A stretch of DNA of 36,555 nt, from NCBI GenBank assembly GCA_028723085.1, contig JAQYFP010000021.1, forward strand, positions 1 to 36,555. Reading direction: 5' to 3'. Below are positions 28,095 through 29,237 of the stretch, piece by piece (position 1 is the stretch's first letter; every line of letters starts with the position of its first letter). The notes under the pieces were generated by a model, which saw only the letters and a list, made by a program, of their open reading frames with translations, was not told where the DNA came from and made no database searches. The position numbers and the translations under genes are program-made. Source of the DNA: Erysipelotrichaceae bacterium (GTDB lineage Bacteria > Bacillota_I > Bacilli_A > Erysipelotrichales > Erysipelotrichaceae).

Positions 28095-28102
28095 TACGAA
28101 TA
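28095..28102 (+). promoter_or_regulatory. TACGAATA box (streptococcal cin-box-like) at comFA
   Basis: The octamer TACGAATA, preceded by T-rich sequence, is identical to the -10 'cin-box' used by the competence sigma factor ComX in streptococci; the SigH/ComX family generally favours GAAT/CGAATA at -10. It ends seven bases before the comFA ATG. The match is exact, but its use by a ComX/SigH-like factor here is inference. Confidence 0.6.
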
Positions 28103-28109
28103 TATAAAT

Positions 28110-29237
28110 ATGAAATGTTTTAGATGCAACAATACCGACCCTACATTATTCTATTATGACTCAGGTGTTTATTACTGTCGAAAATGCATTATGTTTTCTA
28201 GACTTGATGCCAATACGCCTATCAAAAAAGTAACACTATCGAAAAAGATGATTAATACAAGTCCAAAATTAAAGTATCCCCTAACTCCTAAACAAAAAGA
28301 AACATCACATAAAGTTTGTACGCTATTAAAACAAGGAAAAGATGTGTTCTTATATGCCTGTACAGGAGCTGGTAAAACGGAAATCACATATGAAAGCATT
28401 TGTGCTTATTTAAAAGAAGGAAAGAAAGTTTGTTTTGCGATTAGTCGAAGACAAGTGGTTCTTGAACTAAAAGAGAGACTACAAAGTGTATTTCCATCTT
28501 TACATGTTATTTGTGTGGCCCAAGGATATACCGATGAAATTGACGGTGACATCATTGTGTGTACAATGCACCAGTTGTATCGCTACCCCTATTGTTTTGA
28601 TTTATTAATTATGGATGAAGTGGATGCCTTTCCTTATATAGGAAATGAAGTACTAGAAACCATTGCTTCGCTTTCTTGCATTGGACAAAAACTATATTTA
28701 AGTGCTACTCCTGATGAAACTTTATTACATAAAAGTGAAGTTGTAACGTTATTTCAAAGACCACATGGACATCCTTTACCTATTCCTAAAGTATTTGTTT
28801 GTTCTAAATTTATACAATTTATATTAATTATATATTACTTAAATAAATATAAATCCCATCAAATCTTATTATTCGTTCCCACTATTCAAGACTGTATTAC
28901 AATGCACTATTTATTAAAACCATTTGTATCCAATGCCTATGTTCATTCTCAATTTGTAAATAAAGACCAAGTATTACAAGAATTCCATAACAAATCATTT
29001 CGATGTTTAATTAGTACTACATTATTAGAAAGAGGAATTACGATTCCAGATGTATATGTATTTGTGTATCAAGCCAATCACAGTGTTTTCACATGTAGTA
29101 GTCTAATTCAAATATTTGGTCGAATTGGAAGAAGTTTTACTTCACCAGAAGGGAAAGGAATTTGTTTATGTTCAACATACAGCGATGCCATCAAAAACTG
29201 CATCAAGCAATTAAAACAAATGAATCAAGATGCCTGA
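28110..29237 (+). CDS. comFA: ComFA-like DNA helicase for transformation
   Basis: ComFA is a superfamily-2 ATPase on the cytoplasmic side that helps drive uptake of transforming single-stranded DNA. The 375-residue protein starts with a four-Cys zinc motif (CFRCN and CRKC). Then come Walker A ACTGAGKTE, Walker B LIMDEVDAF, LSATPDE, and the C-terminal motifs LISTTLLERGITIPDV and IQIFGRIGRSF. It is somewhat shorter than the 420-460 residues of well-known ComFAs but has all helicase motifs. No ribosome binding site precedes the ATG, and the TACGAATA box places the RNA start at or near the ATG. comFC overlaps its end. Confidence 0.93.
   Translation: MKCFRCNNTDPTLFYYDSGVYYCRKCIMFSRLDANTPIKKVTLSKKMINTSPKLKYPLTPKQKETSHKVCTLLKQGKDVFLYACTGAGKTEITYESICAYLKEGKKVCFAISRRQVVLELKERLQSVFPSLHVICVAQGYTDEIDGDIIVCTMHQLYRYPYCFDLLIMDEVDAFPYIGNEVLETIASLSCIGQKLYLSATPDETLLHKSEVVTLFQRPHGHPLPIPKVFVCSKFIQFILIIYYLNKYKSHQILLFVPTIQDCITMHYLLKPFVSNAYVHSQFVNKDQVLQEFHNKSFRCLISTTLLERGITIPDVYVFVYQANHSVFTCSSLIQIFGRIGRSFTSPEGKGICLCSTYSDAIKNCIKQLKQMNQDA

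Follow-up and report, generated by a model that had tools for sequence, protein, structure and literature searches.

A candidate SigH/ComX-type promoter, with a predicted leaderless start, at the comF operon of an Erysipelotrichaceae bacterium

The comF operon of an Erysipelotrichaceae bacterium is very probably transcribed from a promoter that is read by a SigH/ComX-type sigma factor. Judging by the DNA sequence, this promoter would belong to a late-competence regulon in which several mRNAs are leaderless. The operon lies on contig JAQYFP010000021.1, of which positions 1 to 36,555 were analysed; this 36,555 nucleotide stretch is referred to below as the window. Wider searches used the draft genome (G000; 1.89 Mb in 184 contigs), which we infer to be that of a Floccifex-like species. 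In the literature searched, we found no published account of competence regulation in the Erysipelotrichaceae.

The original prediction placed a streptococcal-type octamer 7 nt before the comFA start codon, with T-rich DNA upstream and no ribosome binding site. This arrangement was confirmed. The cin/com-box, TACGAATA, a −10 element, occupies positions 28095–28102 of the forward strand, as do all features listed here for the comF locus, and has the core sequence CGAATA (28097–28102). A 7 nt spacer, TATAAAT (28103–28109), separates the box from the comFA ATG (28110–28112), and the segment with both reads TTTTTTTTGCGTTTTTTAAAATTTTTACGAATATATAAATATG AAA TGT. No Shine-Dalgarno (SD)-like sequence is present. 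A GCGTTTT element (28078–28084), which ends 12 nt before CGAATA, is a putative −35 region. The gene itself (28110–29237) encodes a late-competence DNA helicase of 375 amino acids, with orthologues in relatives. The ATG at position 28110 is the true start because the zinc-finger CxxC motif of ComFA, with its first residue at codon 3, can be aligned with that of these relatives. The aminotransferase gene upstream (26898–28061) has an intrinsic terminator, consisting of a 13 bp stem and then a T-run (28040–28073). The T-run continues into the comFA promoter region at its upstream edge. Hence, the T-rich sequence is present, but it is in part the terminator of the neighbouring gene. Downstream, the ATG of comFC (ComF family; 29168–29833) is inside the 3′ end of comFA. 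The overlap of ~70 nt (29168–29237) is in a different frame, and both the overlap and the position of the ATG recur in several relatives. With an ATG at 29168, the notion that comFC lacks a start codon or needs a frameshift was rejected.

The bare octamer was discarded as evidence because it is too frequent. It occurs 6 times in the window, where 1.6 copies are expected, and 164 times in the genome, compared with 95 for the reversed string. The sequence context, in contrast, is specific. The pneumococcal ComX consensus, redefined from mapped start sites, is 29 nt long (TTTTTNHNNNYTHTTMCGAATADWNWRRD-[TSS]; PMC6560143). Positions 28081–28109 match the consensus at 29 of 29 bases, and the ComX-type identity proposed for the −10 element is borne out in this respect. 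The second-best score in the window is 27, and 100 simulated window lengths yielded nothing at 28 or above. The consensus includes the position of the start site. Hence, base 28110, the A of the ATG, is the predicted point of transcription initiation, and the match ends 1 base before it. A CGWATW sequence is found exactly 7 nt upstream of 2 of the 1560 ATGs on both strands of the window; one of these is comFA and the other is within another gene. Across the genome, exact matches to GCGTTTT-N12-CGAATW occur only at comFA, comGA and dprA. The pattern was derived from these same three loci, so the matches speak for its specificity and not for discovery. Allowing 1 mismatch gave no enrichment over the reversed control in the genome. 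The loose pattern TTTTNNCGWATW was rejected as evidence, being barely commoner than its reversed control.

If the box marks a regulon, it should recur at other late competence genes, and the original prediction named several of these. Boxes of the CGAATA/T form were found at five competence loci of the genome; comFA, comGA, dprA, comEA-comEC and radC. The original prediction therefore passes its own refutation check, which was a lack of the box at every other late competence gene. The ComGA, ComGC, ComEA, DprA and RadC products were identified with NCBIfam models. The sequence TTTTGCGTTTTTTAATTTTTTTTCGAATTATATAAT precedes the ATG of comGA, and TTTTGCGTTTTCTCTGATTTTGTCGAATATATTAAT precedes that of dprA. 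In both cases, the box is 7 nt from the start codon, there is no SD, and GCGTTTT is at the same distance from the box as at comFA. Upstream of comEA-comEC, the sequence TTTTTACAAATTTAAATTTTTGTCGAATTATAAAGAAGGGTGATATTTATG contains both the box and an SD. For radC, which in pneumococcus ranks with the strongest late genes (PMC6560143), TTTTTTACAAATTCTATTTTTTTTCGAATATAAATATAT is followed by the ATG and the box is at 9 nt.

The spacing is also maintained in relatives. Within the same genus, comFA of the cultured relative Floccifex porci (G001; NZ_VUMM01000002.1) is 71% identical. In eight genomes of the family (G000, G001, G003, G004, G006, G014, G024 and G032), comFA has no SD and its start codon is preceded by CGWATW at a distance of exactly 7 nt. 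In G002, the variant GAGTATA is at the corresponding place. In other genomes, the comFA box is 16–21 nt from the start codon and an SD lies between the two. The comGA, dprA and comEA genes of the family fall into the same two classes; boxes at 5–8 nt without an SD, or at 17–24 nt with one. The F. porci dprA gene has the exact octamer TACGAATA and belongs to the first class, at 8 nt, which is also the distance at comGA of this species. We attach no probability to this conservation because the relatives are not independent. The octamer anticipated from streptococci is present, but it is only one variant of the family motif, which is mostly CGTATA/T (CGWATW overall). In a related family, f2, several genomes have the box together with AGGAGG upstream of comGA and dprA, and comGA of one genome (G044) is preceded by exact TACGAATA. 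In some other genera of the Erysipelotrichaceae, represented by the G009 and G008 com promoters (L042, L119, L272 and L052), AGGAWWW is found ~14 nt before a CGTATA-like box. This element resembles the −35 sequence of Bacillus subtilis SigH. In the Floccifex-like genus, GCGTTTT/ACAAAT seems to have taken its place.

A sigma factor gene of the expected kind is present. In nearly all relatives examined, a SigH-type gene of ~190–230 codons is found between rlmB and rpmG-secE-nusG. In the genome studied here, the gene (C84:8144–8701) is cut by a contig end and is then followed by rpmG-secE-nusG. It was found with a genus profile (E = 2.5e-47); the Pfam sigma model missed the protein. The sigH locus of B. 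subtilis, Lactobacillus sakei and Staphylococcus aureus is at the corresponding position (PMC3364868). The search for a comX/sigH-like gene, suggested along with the box, thus returned one in the SigH locus itself. SigH models were matched by 20 of 24 orthologues of the protein, and the best PDB match of the family profile was SigH (3mzy; 2e-27). The protein is very divergent; its F. porci orthologue matched the SigH model TIGR02859 with an E value of only 5e-4. Low identity among SigH-like factors is also seen within lactobacilli (PMC3364868). No box was found within 45 nt of rlmB in the upstream regions of 15 relatives. The only further sigma factors found in the genome were two RpoD-like proteins (C122; and C168/C94, split between contigs). 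F. porci also has two RpoD-like housekeeping sigma factors.

Our model for these promoters is as follows. The sigma holoenzyme would recognise a T-rich −35/−25 region together with the CGAATA/T −10 box (CGWATW across the family). With a SigH/ComX-type sigma factor, transcription would start ~7 nt past the box in every case. At comFA, comGA and dprA, the start base would be the A of the ATG and the mRNA would be leaderless. When the box is ~17–24 nt before the ATG, the leader would be short and would open with the SD. At comEA-comEC, transcription would begin at the start of the SD, leaving a very short leader. Reading of the box by the SigH-like factor, the exact +1, leaderless translation and transformability are all inferred from sequence. 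The leaderless mRNA first suggested for comFA is thus supported for comFA, comGA and dprA, given the pneumococcal distance and the missing SD, but it is not a general property; comEA is SD-led, so leaderless starts cannot be universal.

We considered whether comFA might instead have an ordinary σA promoter, with the octamer arising by coincidence. The AT content of the region is extremely high, the window contains six copies of bare TACGAATA, and a TATAAA sequence (28102–28107) is next to the start codon. Furthermore, comFA genes of family f2 have no box and have σA-like sequences with an SD instead. Conversely, a promoter scan gave no σA-type promoter directly upstream of comFA. A −10 element at 28102–28107 would place the transcription start inside the gene, past the ATG and close to the codons of the conserved CxxC motif; generally, TATAAA or TATAAT beside an ATG is an unlikely σA element because starts would fall inside genes. 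Initiation further upstream would produce a comFA mRNA with a leader but no SD. Finally, comGA and dprA have the box at this spacing too, as do relatives. We consider a σA promoter very unlikely. There is similarly little room for the box being read by an RpoD-like protein, or by another sigma factor that escaped detection, and not by the SigH-like factor. Two RpoD-like genes are available, and a Pfam model that missed the SigH-like protein could miss further divergent sigma factors. However, both RpoD-like proteins keep a canonical housekeeping region 4.2, and the box equals the −10 element of ComX/SigH-type factors. In addition, late com genes of L. sakei and S. aureus are activated by the positional orthologue of the SigH-like factor (PMC3364868).

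A different possibility is compatible with a SigH/ComX-type promoter; the regulon could be a relic, conserved in sequence in cells that no longer transform. Com genes are often retained by species that are not transformable. ComEC is also strongly diverged, and according to a published survey, the Erysipelotrichaceae have lost ComEC-domain proteins entirely (PMC6299819). The Pfam model PF03772 (ComEC) found nothing in G000 and missed the protein in nearly all genomes of the family. A profile built from relatives did recover a diverged ComEC, encoded downstream of comEA (C123:2769–4586; L275 and L447; E = 7.7e-75). Hence, absence of ComEC from the family was rejected, and its published loss is probably an artefact of sensitivity. 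Separately, a study of Erysipelothrix rhusiopathiae places both comEC and dprA in the core genome (PMC4906694). The genome encodes ComGA/GC, ComEA, ComEC, ComFA/FC and DprA. Contrary to what might be expected of a relic, comGA-GC, comEA, comEC, comFA/FC, dprA and radC are all open reading frames, and the spacing of the box is maintained across genera. We regard loss of transformation as improbable.

The SigH/ComX-type promoters proposed here can be compared with known systems. As for streptococcal ComX (SigX), there is a CGAATA box, a T-rich context and 7 nt to the start, and the late com genes dprA and radC, which are ComX targets, also have the box here (PMC6560143). Conversely, the sigma factor gene is in the sigH locus, whereas that for streptococcal ComX is by tRNA/rRNA operons. 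Furthermore, the Erysipelotrichaceae −10 element drifts to CGTATA/T in relatives, unlike the streptococcal box, and at several genes transcription is predicted to start on the ATG itself, unlike in the streptococcal regulon. The likeness to SigH of L. sakei and S. aureus is that of a positional orthologue in the cysS-nusG locus (PMC3364868). The protein here is much more divergent than those factors, and its presumed box is of the streptococcal type with several putative leaderless targets. The gene neighbourhood also matches that of B. subtilis sigH. However, the genes for DNA uptake in B. subtilis are not direct targets of SigH (PMC3364868); they depend on ComK. In Streptococcus pneumoniae, transcription of 9% of operons begins precisely at the first base of the coding sequence, and translation was efficient in the one example tested (PMC6212727). 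Leaderlessness is a general feature of that genome, whereas here it is predicted for three late-competence operons.

Most likely, the known ComX/SigH competence regulons gain an Erysipelotrichaceae case in which leaderless late genes form a clear class. If so, SigH/ComX control of DNA uptake would extend to this family of common gut bacteria, and expression of the SigH-like factor would provide a direct handle on the transformation of organisms for which genetic tools are scarce. The literature claim of ComEC loss in the family would also be corrected. Orthologous promoters, some leaderless and some SD-led but probably all served by a single sigma factor, would offer a clean natural comparison.

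Candidate boxes also precede genes other than those for DNA uptake. Eleven boxes in the genome, those of comEA, radC and nine other loci, lack GCGTTTT, and most of them have TTTTACAAAT at −35. The nine others precede members of a paralogous family, an FHA/DUF6382 protein, a thioester/SpaA-type protein and some reading frames that are broken or short. The paralogous proteins (C8, C47, C68, C183 and C184; L436, L437 and L442–L445) are up to ~300 amino acids long and contain MNLDTIAKKINANKN. Their promoters are near-identical, with the arrangement TTTTACAAAT-N-TTTTTTCGAATWTATAATGGAGG. At least six boxes precede this family, mostly as TTTTACAAAT-N11/12-CGAATW, with the SD right at the 5′ end of the predicted mRNA. 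One member has a weak match to PDDEXK_2 (E = 0.012), and an E-x-Q core is conserved. It is possible that these proteins are PD-(D/E)XK nucleases. In F. porci, a similar box is found before a gene for a PD-(D/E)XK family transposase (L403; E = 2.6e-26). Tentatively, and with more doubt than confidence, the competence sigma regulon may have recruited an expanded gene family, such that recombination-promoting nucleases would be switched on together with DNA uptake. The FHA/DUF6382 protein (L441, C45) has the promoter common to the paralogous family. The same promoter is found at the gene for the thioester-domain/SpaA-type surface protein (L440; C45:6700–7735), which is divergent from the FHA gene.
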